From Fibrobacter succinogenes (GTDB lineage: Bacteria > Fibrobacterota > Fibrobacteria > Fibrobacterales > Fibrobacteraceae), in assembly GCA_902762795.1 (NCBI GenBank), contig CACWPM010000018.1:62001-126000 (forward strand): 64,000 nucleotides of DNA, written 5' to 3'. The position numbers and the translations under genes were made by a program. Below are positions 11,145 through 60,817 of this stretch, one piece after another (within the stretch, counting starts at the first letter, position 1; every line of letters starts with the position of its first letter). The notes beneath the pieces are model-generated. The model ran no database searches. It saw only the letters and a program-made list of their open reading frames with translations, and was not told where the DNA came from.

Positions 11145-12107
11145 ATGAAATTTCCGCCCTGGACAAGTGTAAGCGAAGCGGCCTGTCTCCTCAAAGATGG
11201 CGAAGTCGTTGCCATCCCGACCGAAACGGTTTACGGACTCGCCGGTAACGCATTCGACCCCAAAGCTCTCGCCAAGATTTTTGCAGCCAAGGAACGCCCG
11301 ACGTTCGACCCGCTGATTGTCCACATAGCAGACATAGCTCAGCTCACCGACATCGCGAAAGATATTCCCGATAGCGCATACAAGCTCGCCGAAGCCTATT
11401 GGCCAGGCCCGATGACGATAATCCTCCCCAAAAAGGATTGCATCCCCGACCTTTGCACAAGCGCTCTTCCCTCTGTCGCCGTACGCTTCCCGAGCCATCC
11501 GGTTGCACAAGCAATTATCAAGGAAGCTGGCATCCCGCTAGCCGCCCCGAGCGCGAACCTATTCAAGCACGTAAGCCCGACAACGGCAGAACACGTTGCG
11601 GCACAGCTCGCCGACCGCATAGCAGGAATTGTCGATGGCGGCCCCTGCTCCGTGGGCGTGGAAAGTTCAATCATCTCGCTCACGGGCGAAAAACCGACGG
11701 TCCTCCGCCCAGGCGCCATTACGCCCGAGATGTTTGCCAAGGTTCTCGGCGATGTCGCCATCAAGGAATCGACGTCAAAGCCGGGCCAGCCGATGCTCGC
11801 CCCAGGCCAGTGCGACACGCATTACCGCCCGCAAGTTCCACTTTACTACGGAGAAGTCCCGGCAGGATACACGCTTCCAGAGCATACCGTACGCATTGCG
11901 TTCGGATTACAAGCAGGTCCAATTCCTGCCACAGTAAACTTGTCCGCAACCGGAGACATGGTCGAAGCCACCTCCAAGCTTTATGCCTTCATGCACGACC
12001 TCGACAAGCCCGATTACGACCTTATCCTTGTCGATCCAATCCCGAACGTGGGAGTTGGCATGGCACTGAACGACCGCTTGAAACGAGCAAGCATTAAGAA
12101 GTTATAG
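11145..12107 (+). CDS. L-threonylcarbamoyladenylate synthase (TsaC/Sua5)
   Basis: 320 residues. The N-terminal YrdC domain has IPTETVYGLAGNA, the KER residues (AAKERP) and APSANLF; a C-terminal Sua5-type domain follows from about residue 205 (APGQCDTHYRPQVP). It makes threonylcarbamoyl-AMP from threonine, bicarbonate and ATP, for t6A37 in tRNAs that read ANN codons. The presence of the C-terminal domain makes it a long Sua5 type rather than a short TsaC. A GGGG ribosome binding site precedes the ATG. It is probably a single-gene unit. Confidence 0.95.
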   Translation: MKFPPWTSVSEAACLLKDGEVVAIPTETVYGLAGNAFDPKALAKIFAAKERPTFDPLIVHIADIAQLTDIAKDIPDSAYKLAEAYWPGPMTIILPKKDCIPDLCTSALPSVAVRFPSHPVAQAIIKEAGIPLAAPSANLFKHVSPTTAEHVAAQLADRIAGIVDGGPCSVGVESSIISLTGEKPTVLRPGAITPEMFAKVLGDVAIKESTSKPGQPMLAPGQCDTHYRPQVPLYYGEVPAGYTLPEHTVRIAFGLQAGPIPATVNLSATGDMVEATSKLYAFMHDLDKPDYDLILVDPIPNVGVGMALNDRLKRASIKKL

Positions 12108-12196
12108 GCAATAGGTTGTATGTACTAGTAGAAATTAGGCATCAGTGCATGATTATTACAAATCAACCCCTGTAACCTAAAACCTAGCACCTACTA
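12100..12196. repeat. Degenerate paired-arm TTAGG repeat
   Basis: Left arm words (ATAGGCAATAGG) begin at the end of the TsaC/Sua5 gene; the right arm (12167-12196) reads on the reverse strand as TAGTAGGTGCTAGG followed by TTTTAGGTTACAGG. The first TAG of this arm is the stop codon of the reverse-strand dipeptidase gene. The core is too diverged to show clear hairpins. Confidence 0.55.
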
Positions 12197-25198: not shown

Positions 25199-25245
25199 AC
25201 GGTAGACTGTAGGAAGTTGGAAGTAGGCAGTAGGATGTAGTTATG
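25199..25245. repeat. GTCTACTG-type dispersed repeat
   Basis: GGTAGACTGTAGGAAG, then GGAAGTAGGCAGTAGG, lies between the MoxR stop and the DUF58 start. It shares words with 12976-13010, 31501-31527, 47890-47925, 53221-53243 and 60787-60818. Confidence 0.65.
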
Positions 25246-31500: not shown

Positions 31501-31632
31501 GTAGTAGGAAGTTAGAAGTAGGAAGTGGTTAGGGTTTAGGGGTTGGGAAAGTAAGGCGGCATCGCCGCATTTTTTAATGATCTTGGTACTTAAGATATAA
31601 CCTATTTCCTGTTACCTAACACCTATTACCTC
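31501..31632. repeat. Paired-arm TTAGG repeat, copy between queF and yhhQ
   Basis: A GTAGTAGGAAG-type segment (31501-31527) is followed by a left arm (GGTTAGGGTTTAGGGGTTGGG), a core with hairpins GCGGC ATC GCCGC (31556-31568) and ATCTT/AAGAT (31580-31596), and a right arm CCTATTTCCTGTTACC then TAACACCTATTACC (31601-31630). The right arm runs into queF and encodes its last residues and stop. Confidence 0.65.
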
Positions 31633-43891: not shown

Positions 43892-46800
43892 CTAGAGCCG
43901 TCCAAAACGGCCTTTTAACCTCGCTAAAGCGTCTTCTTCCACAACCTCTTCGGCATCGACTCCCTTCCGTTTATATTTAAGGATTTCAAAGTCTTCAAGT
44001 AAAGCCTTCGCCTGCAAGTAAAGGTCGGCAAATTTAGGATCATCCGTTGGCATGCGGTCGATTTTTCCAAGGAGTTCACGCGCATTTTTCAGTTCATGAT
44101 CCTTGAGGTAACGCGCCTTGAGGTATGGGCGAAAATATTCGCGGAGGGTATTGGCCGAAAGCTCCGTATTTTCGTTGGATGTGCTGAAATTGCGAGATGC
44201 ACTAGATTCGCAAGATGCACTAGAATCGCGAGATGCGCCGAGCTCGCCACACACAAGATTTATTCCGAGGAGCTCCGAGACCGCACACAGTCGTTCAAAC
44301 AAAGTAAGTTCTTTTTGGTACGCAGTATGGATCGCTATTATTATTTTATTTTGAGCTAAAGTTTTTTCAGCAGAATTACGCATGTTCACGCTGAAATCTT
44401 TAAGGATATTCCAACATTTCACGAACGCATCAGCACTGACAAGTCCCGATTCATACGTAGCACGTACAAGCGAAAGGCGGATTTCTTCATCTTCGCTGCG
44501 CGTGTTCGCGGCAAGACTCTTGAAGTCGCGAATCTTTTTTCCTCGCGAGAACTCAAGCCCCGTGAAACGCACACAGCGATTGGCATCAAGAAGGTCGGCA
44601 ATGAGAGATTTCGCCACCCAAATTTTGAGCACAGTTTCAAAGTTATCCGCAAAGACTCCGCCTGTTTCGAGCAAATTCAAACGATCGGCAATGAGTTGCT
44701 TTTTTTCTTCGGAGAGAGGGGTTTTCTGTTGAGCAGAACGCGACGCAGTTTCGAGATGCGATGCAGATTCGAGACGTCCGCCCTCCACACGTTTGCGGAA
44801 AGCTTGCCAAAAACGGGATTCATCCGACATCATCAAAGCGGATTCGCCAAGCCGCCAGCCAAAACGCATATTTTCAAGCGGAAAATCAATGCCAAACGTC
44901 ACAATCGCTGGTCGAACAGCAAGGAACATGCGGTAAGAACCCCATTCGGGTGACACTTCTATAGCGACCGTTCGCGCCCCTGTATCAGAAACCGCCGTCA
45001 GGCGCTCACTCTCGCCTACACCGCCAGCTTCCGCTTGGCGGCTTCGGCTCACATTAAAAGGTTCCGGGAAACCAGGCTTCGAAACGACCAAATGCAAGCG
45101 CAAATGATTTTCTTTGTCCGGATTCACCGTCGGAACGTCGATGCTAGCGCCGTTTGCACCCGAGCGGATTTCCTTTGTATTCGAAAATACTTCGTAAAGG
45201 AGCTGCAGCGGAGCCTTATGCGGAAAGTTCTCAAGCGCCGCAAAGAATTCATCATCAATCGCAGTGCGCTTGGCTTCGAGCGATTTTTTGACGCTTTTCG
45301 GCATCTCGCGAATCACGGATTCAATCATCCATTCGCGCCATTGCTGGATGCTCATCGCAAATTTTGCCGGAGAAATTTCAGTCAGCAAGTCATAAGGCAA
45401 ATGAAGCGTAATGCCATCGCAATCGCGAGTCGCATCAAAAACCATTTCGCCCGTAACCACACGCTCACCAATACGGAAATGCTCGATGGAACCGCCATTA
45501 ACAGGTTTTAGGTCATAGGTTTTAGGTGTTAGGTTTTTCTTATTCCAACGAGAAGGCGATTCCGGGACGGAGCCCGGAATGACAATGCGATTGAAGCCCC
45601 TCTCGTCTTTCGTCTGTAGGGCAACGCCCGTTCTCTCGTCCAATAAATCCAGCCAATACTTTTCGTCAAATTTGAGGAATTGGTCGGTGTGCTCGCGGAT
45701 GTAGTCTTTAAGCGTCTTGATGGAATTGACTTTACCTGCAATTCGCGTGTAGTATTCCACAAGCGCATCTTCGCTCGGAGCAATCCCGAACTGGCGTTTA
45801 CGCGCTTCGAGAGCGTGGAGATTTTCAACAACACGGTCGTTGTGCGTCATGAAATCGAAAGGCCTTGCCACCTCGCCCATCACCACCGCGTCGCGCCAGA
45901 AAATCTGGGCGCAGTCTTCGGGATTCACGCGAGCATAATCGATACGATGGCCTCGGCTAATCACAAGACCGCGGAAGCTCACTTCTTCGACAGCTTCGAC
46001 AAAGCCGCGTTCCTTGTTCCACGTCGGTTCAAACCAGCGACGCGTACAGAACGGTTCGGCCACTTGCAAAATCCATTCCGGCTTGATTTCGGCAGCCTTC
46101 GTGAGAAACGTACGACTCGTTTCGCGCACTTCGGCACTGAAAAGCCATTCCACGCTTTTCGCGTACAAATCGCTGCCCGGGAACACATGCGTTTCGCGGC
46201 CGTTCACCAAGCGGTAACAGCCGTTTTCGATATCGCGGTGCGCAATCCCGCCCAGGAATCCGGAGAGGAGCGCAATGTGCAAATTGTCGCGATGGAATGA
46301 ATCGAACGGACAAACTTTATTTTCAATTTTTACTTCGAGAATGCGGCTGAACTGTTCGTACAAATCGACCCATTCACGCAAGCGCAAAAAATGCATACTA
46401 TTCTTGTCACAGAACTTGCGGAGTTTGTTCCAAGTTTTGCCGTCCCAGTCCGTGCAGAAAGCATTCCACATCGAAACGTAAACGAGGAAATCGCTCTTGT
46501 GACCGCAGAATTTGCGATGCAGCTGACGGATGCGGGTGCGTTCCGGTTCATCGTTAGGCACCACACGCGGATCCTGGATGCTAAGCGCCGAGCACACGAT
46601 AAGCGCAGGCTGCAAAACGCCCATATCACGAGCGCGCAAAAGCACAGCCGAAAGCGACACGTCCATCGGGAGGCGCGTCATATCGCGGCCAAGCTTGGTC
46701 ACGTGACCGCTAGAATTGTCTGCCGTGAGTGCGCCCAGTTCAAACAACGTCTTGTAAGCGCCACGGAACGCCGAATGCGGAGGCGACTGCAAGAACGGGA

Positions 46801-48091
46801 AGTTTTCGAGTTCTAGTCCGAGGCTGCGGAGTTGCAGCACCACATTCGCCAAATTGCTACGGCGGATTTCCGGTTCCGTGAATTCATCGCGCTTTTCAAA
46901 ATTCTCGGGAGAGTAAAGGCGAATGCACACGCCGGGCTTCACGCGCCCCGCGCGTCCAGTGCGCTGCCGCGCACTGGCCTTCGAAATTTCTTCGACGGGA
47001 AGCCCCTGGATTCTCGCCTGCGCATTGTATCGCGAGATTCGAGCCATACCCGTATCGACAACGTAAGCAATTCCCGGAATCGTCAAGGAAGTTTCAGCAA
47101 TGTTCGTCGCCAAGACCACGCGAGTCTTGCCGGTATGCTTGAAAATGCGGCGCTGTTCGTCAGGACTCATGCGTCCATACAACGGAAGCACATCAAACGT
47201 CGCTGCATCCAGCTCGTGAGCAAGCTCGCCCATCAAGTCCTGAATGTCGCGTTCCGTCGGTAAAAAACAGAGCAAGTGGTCGCGATGCCGCGTTTCCAAA
47301 TCGAGAATCGCATCACGAGCCTCTTCAATCAACCCCGAATCGCCCTTGCCCGAGATATCACGACCGAAACCTCTCTCGTCTCTCGTCTGTAGGGCTCCGC
47401 CCGTTCTCGTATCTGAGAAATAATACTCGACATCCACAGGGTACGTGCGGCCTTCGGCCTCCATCACGCAACTGTTGTCGTAAAACTCTTCGAATAGTTT
47501 TGCATCTAAAGTTGCAGACGCGACAATCAACTTGAAGTCTGGACGCTTTGCAAGAACCGTCTTGAAAATGCCGAGCAAGATATCGATGTTCAACGAGCGT
47601 TCATGCGCTTCGTCAATCATGATGGCGTTGTACTGCCGGAACAAGCGGTCCTTGCGGAACTCCTGCAACAAGATACCATCCGTCATCACCTTGATGGGAG
47701 CTTCATTCGTGCCTTGTTCCCAAAAACGAATTTTCGTCGAGACTAGCTCTTCGTCCTTGAGTTCTTCGCGCAAGCGGTCGGCAATGGAGATTGCCGCCAA
47801 ACGCCGAGGTTCCGTCACGCCGATTTTAAAGGAACAGGTATTAGGTTTTAGGTTACAGGTTTTAGGAGTCTCCGAATGACACTCCCCATCACTTCCTACT
47901 TCCGACTTCCTACTGTCTACTTTTTCTAAAAACCATTCCAGCAAAAACTTCGGTAATTGCGTAGATTTGCCGGAACCCGTATCGGCCTTGACAATAATGA
48001 CTTGATGTTTTTCTAAAAGCTCAAAAAACTCCTCCCGATGTTCAACAACGGGAAGCTCAGGATATTCAATCTTCAAATCAGACAAAAACAT
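43892..48091 (-). CDS. hrpA: ATP-dependent RNA helicase HrpA with repeat-derived insertions
   Basis: 1399 residues, DEAH-box type. Walker A GSGKST (39-44), DEAH (160-163), then ATNIAETSLTIPGI and QRTGRAGRVKPG. The C-terminal OB-like and DUF3418 regions follow. Residues about 57-89 (VDSRKSEVGSD to NTCSFK) between motifs I and Ia, about 224-245 (TRTGGALQTRDERGF) and about 823-864 (ERTGVALQTKDERGF, then VIPGSVPESPSRW) are encoded by dispersed repeats (see repeat features). A further tandem-repeat insertion lies at about 1277-1300. Length exceeds the roughly 1300 of E. coli HrpA. The helicase rescues stalled ribosomes on mRNA. Confidence 0.92.
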   Translation of the reverse strand: MFLSDLKIEYPELPVVEHREEFFELLEKHQVIIVKADTGSGKSTQLPKFLLEWFLEKVDSRKSEVGSDGECHSETPKTCNLKPNTCSFKIGVTEPRRLAAISIADRLREELKDEELVSTKIRFWEQGTNEAPIKVMTDGILLQEFRKDRLFRQYNAIMIDEAHERSLNIDILLGIFKTVLAKRPDFKLIVASATLDAKLFEEFYDNSCVMEAEGRTYPVDVEYYFSDTRTGGALQTRDERGFGRDISGKGDSGLIEEARDAILDLETRHRDHLLCFLPTERDIQDLMGELAHELDAATFDVLPLYGRMSPDEQRRIFKHTGKTRVVLATNIAETSLTIPGIAYVVDTGMARISRYNAQARIQGLPVEEISKASARQRTGRAGRVKPGVCIRLYSPENFEKRDEFTEPEIRRSNLANVVLQLRSLGLELENFPFLQSPPHSAFRGAYKTLFELGALTADNSSGHVTKLGRDMTRLPMDVSLSAVLLRARDMGVLQPALIVCSALSIQDPRVVPNDEPERTRIRQLHRKFCGHKSDFLVYVSMWNAFCTDWDGKTWNKLRKFCDKNSMHFLRLREWVDLYEQFSRILEVKIENKVCPFDSFHRDNLHIALLSGFLGGIAHRDIENGCYRLVNGRETHVFPGSDLYAKSVEWLFSAEVRETSRTFLTKAAEIKPEWILQVAEPFCTRRWFEPTWNKERGFVEAVEEVSFRGLVISRGHRIDYARVNPEDCAQIFWRDAVVMGEVARPFDFMTHNDRVVENLHALEARKRQFGIAPSEDALVEYYTRIAGKVNSIKTLKDYIREHTDQFLKFDEKYWLDLLDERTGVALQTKDERGFNRIVIPGSVPESPSRWNKKNLTPKTYDLKPVNGGSIEHFRIGERVVTGEMVFDATRDCDGITLHLPYDLLTEISPAKFAMSIQQWREWMIESVIREMPKSVKKSLEAKRTAIDDEFFAALENFPHKAPLQLLYEVFSNTKEIRSGANGASIDVPTVNPDKENHLRLHLVVSKPGFPEPFNVSRSRQAEAGGVGESERLTAVSDTGARTVAIEVSPEWGSYRMFLAVRPAIVTFGIDFPLENMRFGWRLGESALMMSDESRFWQAFRKRVEGGRLESASHLETASRSAQQKTPLSEEKKQLIADRLNLLETGGVFADNFETVLKIWVAKSLIADLLDANRCVRFTGLEFSRGKKIRDFKSLAANTRSEDEEIRLSLVRATYESGLVSADAFVKCWNILKDFSVNMRNSAEKTLAQNKIIIAIHTAYQKELTLFERLCAVSELLGINLVCGELGASRDSSASCESSASRNFSTSNENTELSANTLREYFRPYLKARYLKDHELKNARELLGKIDRMPTDDPKFADLYLQAKALLEDFEILKYKRKGVDAEEVVEEDALARLKGRFGRL
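44192..44245. repeat. 18-bp tandem repeat inside hrpA
   Basis: Units GCGAGATGCACTAGATTC, GCAAGATGCACTAGAATC and GCGAGATGCGCCGAGCTC occur in order. The period is again six codons, and it shares the GCGAGATGC word with the DUF58 gene repeat. Confidence 0.85.
45498..45628. repeat. Composite dispersed-repeat insertion in hrpA (third)
   Basis: Contains TTAGG-arm words (ACAGGTTTTAGG, then ATAGGTTTTAGGTGTTAGG), a REP-like palindrome ATTCCGGGACGGAGCCCGGAATGACA... and a GTCTTTCGTCTG word, all kept in frame. It encodes the stretch after LDERTGV. Confidence 0.8.
47355..47418. repeat. GTCTCGTCTGTAGGGC insertion in hrpA (second)
   Basis: CCTCTCGTCTCTCGTCTG, then TAGGGCTCCGCCCG, encodes GALQTRDERGF; the same words in the third insertion encode VALQTKDERGF. 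It belongs to the family at 28853-28885 and 49308-49342. Confidence 0.8.
47836..47928. repeat. Composite dispersed-repeat insertion in hrpA (first)
   Basis: The TTAGG words (ACAGGTATTAGGTTTTAGG, then GTTACAGGTTTTAGG) are followed by AGTCTCCGAATGACAC (REP-like) and CTTCCTACTTCCGACTTCC, then TACTGTCTAC. It is inserted in frame between helicase motifs I and Ia. Confidence 0.85.
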
Positions 48092-48093
48092 TC

Positions 48094-48222
48094 TATAGGT
48101 TTCAGGTTACAGGTTTTAGGTATTAGGTTAATTTCATGCACTTCGTGCATCTATAAAACGGGCGACGGAGTCGCGATAATAAATCCTATTACCTAACTCC
48201 TAAAACCTAATTCCTACTCTTT
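48094..48222. repeat. Paired-arm TTAGG repeat with two hairpins (copy at hrpA start)
   Basis: Left arm TAGGTTTCAGGTTACAGG then TTTTAGGTATTAGG (48096-48129). Core: ATGCAC TTC GTGCAT (48136-48150), CTATAAAACGG, GCGAC GGA GTCGC (48162-48174). Right arm CCTATTACCTAACTCC then TAAAACCTAATTCCTA (48185-48216). The right arm provides the TAG stop of the reverse-strand zinc-ribbon gene. Confidence 0.8.
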
Positions 48223-48354
48223 AATATGCCCGCATTTGTCGCAGGTGAGCTTGTAGCTGTTATCGGGGTCAACCACCATCACGCCGTCGCATTCCGGAAC
48301 TTCGCAGGGGAGTTCCCCCGGCATCACATCTCTGTAAGTCTTTTTTTCTTCCAT
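48214..48354 (-). CDS. Small zinc-ribbon protein
   Basis: 46 residues from ATG 48354 (MEEKKTYRDV); an upstream in-frame start at 48399 is less likely. Cysteines in PCEVPEC and CDKCGH make a short zinc ribbon. The stop codon is inside the repeat arm. No family is named. It is divergent from the thioesterase gene. Confidence 0.65.
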   Translation of the reverse strand: MEEKKTYRDVMPGELPCEVPECDGVMVVDPDNSYKLTCDKCGHIKE

Positions 48355-60477: not shown

Positions 60478-60817
60478 TAAAGGTCTCCCTATATAAAATC
60501 GAGACCCAAATTTAGGAATTTACTTCAATTTCGTTAAGGGGGGTAAGATTTTTTTATAAAATATTGTTTACGCGAATTAGGTTTTAGGTTACAGGTTATA
60601 GGTATTAGGATAAATATCACGAGCTTCGCTCGTCTTTAAAAGGTGGCGTAGCCAGATTATAAAAACCTAGCCCCTAATACCTAACACCTACAGTACTGTC
60701 TGGATCCTCTTCGAGGATGACGCATTAACCTCTAAAGTAATCCCGCCGTGGCAAACCACGCATCTACTTTGAGCAACAAGTTTTTCTGTCTACCGTCTAC
60801 TGCCTACTGTCTACTAA
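60478..60817. repeat. Gene-free repeat region with a paired-arm element
   Basis: Holds a paired-arm TTAGG repeat (next entry), a GGATCCTCTTCGAGGATGACG word (about 60702-60722), and CTACCGTCTACTGCCTACTG, then TCTACTAATTA (60790-60818), which directly follows the stop of the zinc-ribbon gene on the reverse strand. No gene is seen. Confidence 0.7.
60577..60691. repeat. Paired-arm TTAGG repeat with two hairpins (copy by the SulP gene)
   Basis: Left arm TTAGGTTTTAGGTTACAGG, then TTATAGGTATTAGGA. Core: ACGAGC TTC GCTCGT (60619-60633), CTTTAAAAGG, TGGC GTA GCCA (60644-60654). Right arm AACCTAGCCCCTAATACC, then TAACACCTAC. The hairpins pair where the copy at 48094-48222 pairs, with different bases. 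Confidence 0.8.

Follow-up and report, generated by a model that had tools for sequence, protein, structure and literature searches.

A short two-hairpin repeat between inverted heptad arrays, dispersed in Fibrobacter genomes

Copies in the window and layout of the core

The window analysed here is a stretch of 64,000 nucleotides from a 3.93 Mb genome of the genus Fibrobacter. Near the genes sua5, queF and hrpA, and near a 46-aa zinc-ribbon gene, it holds copies of a repeat unit of about 120 bases, built as an inverted pair of period-7 arrays around a dyad-symmetric core (Table 1). The two full copies, 48096-48216 and 60578-60690, share one layout but have different stems; a first-pass annotation of this DNA had both their sequences and their coordinates right. 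It had also described the copy at 12.1 kb as degraded, and that copy is indeed a decayed one. For the copy at 31.5 kb, the hairpin that it proposed, GCGGC-ATC-GCCGC, stands as hairpin 2, but the pair ATCTT/AAGAT does not stand as hairpin 1 of the family.

Table 1. Positions of the repeat copies and of other heptad arrays in the window
Feature	Positions	Strand	Basis
Left heptad arm TAGGTTTCAGGTTACAGGTTTTAGGTATTAGG, 48.1 kb copy	48096..48127	+	window sequence, lag-7 self-match of arms
Hairpin 1 ATGCAC-TTC-GTGCAT, 48.1 kb copy	48136..48150	+	
Linker CTATAAAACGG (family CTATANAGG), 48.1 kb copy	48151..48161	+	
Hairpin 2 GCGAC-GGA-GTCGC, 48.1 kb copy	48162..48174	+	
Right heptad arm, CCTA heptads, inverted relative to the left arm, 48.1 kb copy	48185..48216	-	
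Left heptad arm, 60.5 kb copy (second full copy)	60578..60609	+	
Hairpin 1 ACGAGC-TTC-GCTCGT, 60.5 kb copy	60619..60633	+	
Hairpin 2 TGGC-GTA-GCCA, 60.5 kb copy	60644..60654	+	
Right heptad arm, 60.5 kb copy	60666..60690	-	
Left heptad arm, TAGGAAG-type then TAGGG, 31.5 kb copy (third)	31502..31549	+	
Hairpin 2 GCGGC-ATC-GCCGC, 31.5 kb copy, without canonical hairpin 1	31556..31568	+	
Right heptad arm, 31.5 kb copy	31601..31632	-	
Decayed fourth copy, arms and one hairpin remnant, between the convergent sua5 and M15 peptidase genes	12105..12193		
Inverted heptad pair without hairpin core, within the hrpA reading frame	47835..47919		
Single heptad array, within the hrpA reading frame	45502..45537	+	
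Single heptad array without core	25203..25245	+	

The window has 11 arrays of four TAGG-like heptads, its shuffles none. The arms carry a TAG every 7 bases, which closes all three frames, and the stop codons of sua5, queF and the zinc-ribbon gene lie inside them (12105-12107, 31616-31618 and 48214-48216). The end of the zinc-ribbon gene is also overlapped, on the minus strand at 48211-48236, by a sub-threshold Rfam match to RF02914, DUF805b RNA (22.9 bits against a gathering score of 35.6).

The core, about 42 bp long, reads TC-hairpin 1-CTATANAGG-hairpin 2-GAT, with a palindromic CTATAG in the linker; its feet in the alignment are TCA.../...CTATA and ...GAT. The triloops fall into two classes. 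Among 65 distinct cores, loop 1 has TNC 51 times and GNA not once, and loop 2 has GNA 35 times and TNC 4 times. Because these classes stand in fixed order, the reverse complement of a core has the same layout as the core itself, and a covariance model matches many copies on both strands. Folded as DNA, the 48.1 kb copy forms its arms and two hairpins on either strand, with z about -4. In DNA, GNA triloops closed by a C-G pair, such as d(GCGAAGC), have an unusual stability, which we take as a lead only.

Pairing in the hairpins and period of the arms

The first-pass annotation proposed that the hairpins co-vary between copies, and they do so far beyond shuffles. For 20 cores of the own genome the covariation reaches 0.327, the mean of the shuffles being 0.177, and for 24 diverse cores from diverse species it is 0.450 against 0.208; none of 500 shuffles reaches the observed value in either set. 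Twelve different perfect stems are found for hairpin 1, and five for hairpin 2.

A sharper view comes from a young amplified family, of which 46 copies were picked by their flanks only, stem quality playing no part. All 11 pairs are Watson-Crick in 39 of the 46 copies, and variable columns are rarer in stems (7/22) than among unpaired positions (13/15, p=0.002), p-values here being indicative, since copies that several genomes inherited from a common ancestor are not independent observations. No single-sided stem change occurs in more than one copy; the sole stem change common to several copies is a compensated one, from a C-G to a T-A pair. This flank-anchored sample replaces an earlier count of variable columns, 0/22 in stems and 11/15 unpaired, which was set aside as biased, its copies having been picked in order of model score.

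Covariation, low stem variation and the privacy of single-sided changes together imply that the hairpin fold matters. The proposal of selection on folded RNA or DNA is partly supported, through the hairpins; the arms are no part of the maintained fold, and the RNA level is disfavoured on the grounds given below. The structural constraint on the hairpins could act on RNA, or could arise mechanically.

The arms obey another rule. Their self-match at lag 7 is 0.48-0.51 on both sides, compared with 0.26 in control pieces, and the heptad type of this genome is TAGGNNT. Within a family, partner arms of one copy match at 0.617, and arms of different copies at 0.616; since partners match no better than arms shuffled between copies, the arms are not a selected stem, and a conserved long stem is ruled out at this level. 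Across diverse copies, both arms nevertheless carry the same heptad type (0/5000 permutations). The type itself changes, with TAGGNNT, TAGAGAC, TTAACAA, GACGAGA and TCAGTNN found across copies and species: the letters are replaced altogether from one species to the next, and at locus L204 even from copy to copy within a genome, while period 7 is kept. Slippage by 7 bases is visible in four near-identical TTAGTGG units in genome G001, at a place where G000 differs.

Every one of the 25 genomes examined has heptad arrays, and these occur without cores too: alone, around other inserts, or as single arrays at orthologous sites. In 356 kb, an array with a partner at most 160 bp downstream has the order TAG-first then CTA in 5 of 6 neighbour pairs. 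The independence of arms and cores, which the first-pass annotation had named as an argument against its reading, exists in one direction: arms occur without a core, whereas cores nearly always come with arms. Arms and core may have separate histories, since arrays also occur without cores. In G003, a species without the core, inverted arms (TAGTTGG/TAGAACT) with a short stretch between them are common (L354-L361). A second hairpin module (CCTTTGACCACTTAGTGC...GGGG, with TTTA loops and variable stems) is cleanly inserted into heptad arrays at L160, L290 (7330-7400) and L360 (about 520-580).

Copy number and empty sites

Genome-wide, a three-heptad pattern has 264 matches, against 4 for the reversed control. 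A covariance model built from the 20 own-genome cores, R1, finds 35-43 core matches in the own genome, 57 in G001, 32 in G006, 46 in G008 and 69 in G013; it finds no core copies in G003, G005, G010 and G014. Copy number is thus patchy across the genus, from 0 to 69, with hundreds of copies in all, and G008 and G013 have identical cores at many sites. When 84,980 species genomes were scanned for an exact pattern, only Fibrobacter records appeared among the matches listed.

Model R2, built from diverse cores with the arms left out, matches most Fibrobacter genomes and a handful of further genera in the family; it also matches G039, which belongs to another family of the same class. Seven of the eight R2 matches in G039, weak ones included, are flanked by inverted period-7 arms built of another heptad, mostly TCAGTNN; because arms are not in the model, these are an independent confirmation. 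A literature search on Fibrobacter repeats found none.

The element is mobile or recently dispersed: near-identical cores stand at many sites, and orthologous sites are empty. The interval 60572-60817, whose 246 bp contain the 60.5 kb copy, is absent at the orthologous place in G019. The 31.5 kb copy has an empty orthologous interval, of about 9 bp, in both G019 and G001. At L181, G001 has an insertion of 145 bp relative to G014, between flanks that are 95% identical. The interval upstream of hrpA contains this element in G000 and G001 and other heptad elements in G004, G019, G008, G009 and G011, and is only 10-14 bp long in G014, G002 and G007. In the comparison of L290 with L205, the 42-bp core is missing and the arms are kept, another hairpin module being inserted in the heptads. 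Presence and absence alone cannot always separate insertion from loss. No consistent target-site duplication was found: TTAC is a possible one at 60.5 kb, and none is clear at L181 and L374.

Two side observations concern the same neighbourhoods. A REP-like GTCTGGATCCTCTTCGAGGATGACG hairpin at 60693-60725 directly adjoins the 60.5 kb copy, within the same 246-bp insertion. The hrpA frame holds heptad and REP DNA (47835-47919 and 45502-45537), as Rickettsia palindromic elements do in genes. Between LLEWF and FKIGVTEPRR, nearly all 23 orthologues of hrpA have a peptide of different length and sequence.

Proposed mode of spread and related elements

It is natural to conjecture that the repeat is a small DNA element dispersed through Fibrobacter genomes, non-autonomous and recognised or copied via its hairpins, and we put the probability of this reading at about 0.55. 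In single-stranded or extruded DNA, either strand would fold into the same two-hairpin fork. The fork would be recognised by the pairing of its stems and by its TNC and GNA loops, and not by the letters of the stems; a putative protein, or the replication machinery, would then copy it to new intergenic sites. Copies with a broken stem would stop spreading, so that only compensated stem changes would spread. The arms, for their part, would contribute sequence in the form of heptads, and not structure, with a quick turnover by 7-base slippage.

No mover was found, since neither RAYT nor reverse transcriptases track copy number. The Y1 transposase (Y1_Tnp, RAYT) is present in G000, G001, G018, G065 and G072, and absent from the high-copy genomes G006, G008, G013, G062, G087, G096 and G110; its absence from most high-copy genomes rules it out as the mover, and reverse transcriptases were rejected because they do not follow copy number. 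A mobile gene between paired copies was also considered, at L125 and L164, where the open reading frames are ordinary-looking or unassigned and no transposase was seen by eye.

The preference for recognition of the fork at the DNA level comes from weighing a function of transcribed hairpins, as terminators, mRNA stabilisers or processing sites. The elements are intergenic, with no placed copy inside a called gene; they fold well as RNA (z of -3.2 to -5.6), and hairpin 2 of the 48.1 kb copy gives a terminator-like match on the minus strand (48162-48174). However, the convergent, co-directional and divergent contexts of the copies, 27/58/21, match the background of 41/92/34, the orientation of cores relative to genes is mixed (24 same, 34 opposite), and the core is strand-symmetric, with the same layout on both strands. 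The stems show no excess of G-U over A-C. With gene context at background and terminator-like matches no more numerous than in shuffles, a terminator or UTR element was rejected, and so was a known RNA family, as no Rfam family scores above the gathering score. A random gene context and the lack of a G-U surplus make an RNA gene or terminator unlikely, and we consider any function at the RNA level highly improbable. Together with mixed orientation and the Rfam result, these same observations are why DNA-level recognition is preferred.

Two further explanations stay with DNA. The hairpins might be kept perfect through quasipalindrome correction, a template switching at replication, and slippage in steps of 7 bases might maintain the heptads, compensated changes then arising in one event and without selection. 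Such a purely mutational origin would account for the scarcity of intermediate mismatches next to numerous compensated stems, for the heptad turnover seen between G001 and G000, and for the agreement in heptad type between the two arms across species, which foldback copying would produce; yet it leaves unexplained the TNC and GNA loop classes in their fixed order, the conserved linker and feet, and the recent spread of one core to many sites, and single-sided stem changes do exist, although they stay private. We regard it as rather unlikely. The heptads might instead be sites for a chromosome-organising or regulatory protein, the hairpins serving as spacer or cruciform: the period of 7 and the inverted symmetry persist where letters differ between species, and the TAGG motif is conserved in the arms where arm-arm pairing is not. 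The wholesale change of heptads between species and copies would be hard to reconcile with a fixed DNA-binding protein, and several closely related genomes have no core, so that binding arrays appear very unlikely. A wider conjecture, which we offer tentatively and think doubtful, extends the dispersed hairpin element to a class-wide mobile DNA family whose invariants would lie in geometry and not in letters: a period of 7, arms that are inverted and agree in heptad type, and a pair of hairpins with TNC and GNA loops. A putative enzyme, or replication-coupled foldback copying, would propagate it in 7-base steps that need pairing and not sequence.

Among known systems, REPINs are REP doublets in inverted order whose movement is attributed to RAYT transposases, and compensatory changes have been reported on their hairpin stems (PMC3116915). 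Like them, the Fibrobacter element has two inverted hairpin units around a spacer and compensated stems, and is intergenic, non-autonomous and of high copy number. Unlike them, it does without RAYT in most high-copy genomes, has no fixed GTAG or CGTC foot (CGTC appearing only in stems whose second pair is C-G), and has a core flanked by inverted period-7 arrays.

Cyanobacterial small dispersed repeats (SDR), whose single unit is 21-27 nt long, are reportedly mobile and of very small size; they are said to lie often within tandem heptamers and to have a secondary structure backed by compensatory mutations. The Fibrobacter core likewise sits in tandem heptamers, with a lag-7 peak in both arms, and has compensatory hairpin changes; contrary to an SDR, it measures about 42 bp and has two hairpins in dyad symmetry between inverted heptad arms. 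The comparison is made by description and not by sequence, with a distant phylum. A paper that cites Elhai et al. 2008 (Genome Res 18:1484) confirms insertion of the cyanobacterial SDR5 into HIP1.

The abundant intergenic TAACTGA direct repeats of Beggiatoaceae and others (PMC4679880) are one fixed heptamer, almost never inverted, whereas the Fibrobacter heptads are degenerate, paired in inverted orientation and provided with a hairpin core. With MITEs and palindromic elements of the Rickettsia type the element shares a small size, inverted ends and intergenic position; it differs in that no autonomous partner was found in the DNA between paired copies (L125, L164), no constant target duplication was seen and the core stems vary in sequence. 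The element works like a REPIN and like a cyanobacterial SDR set in heptamers, and departs from the former in RAYT and foot, and from the latter in size.

To the tiny hairpin elements that are linked with heptad arrays, the Fibrobacter repeat adds a second example, distant from the first and well sampled, which lies outside the RAYT system and offers recent dispersal and empty sites. The movement of such elements, and the cause of a 7-base period that is independent of sequence, are directly testable in culturable rumen bacteria.
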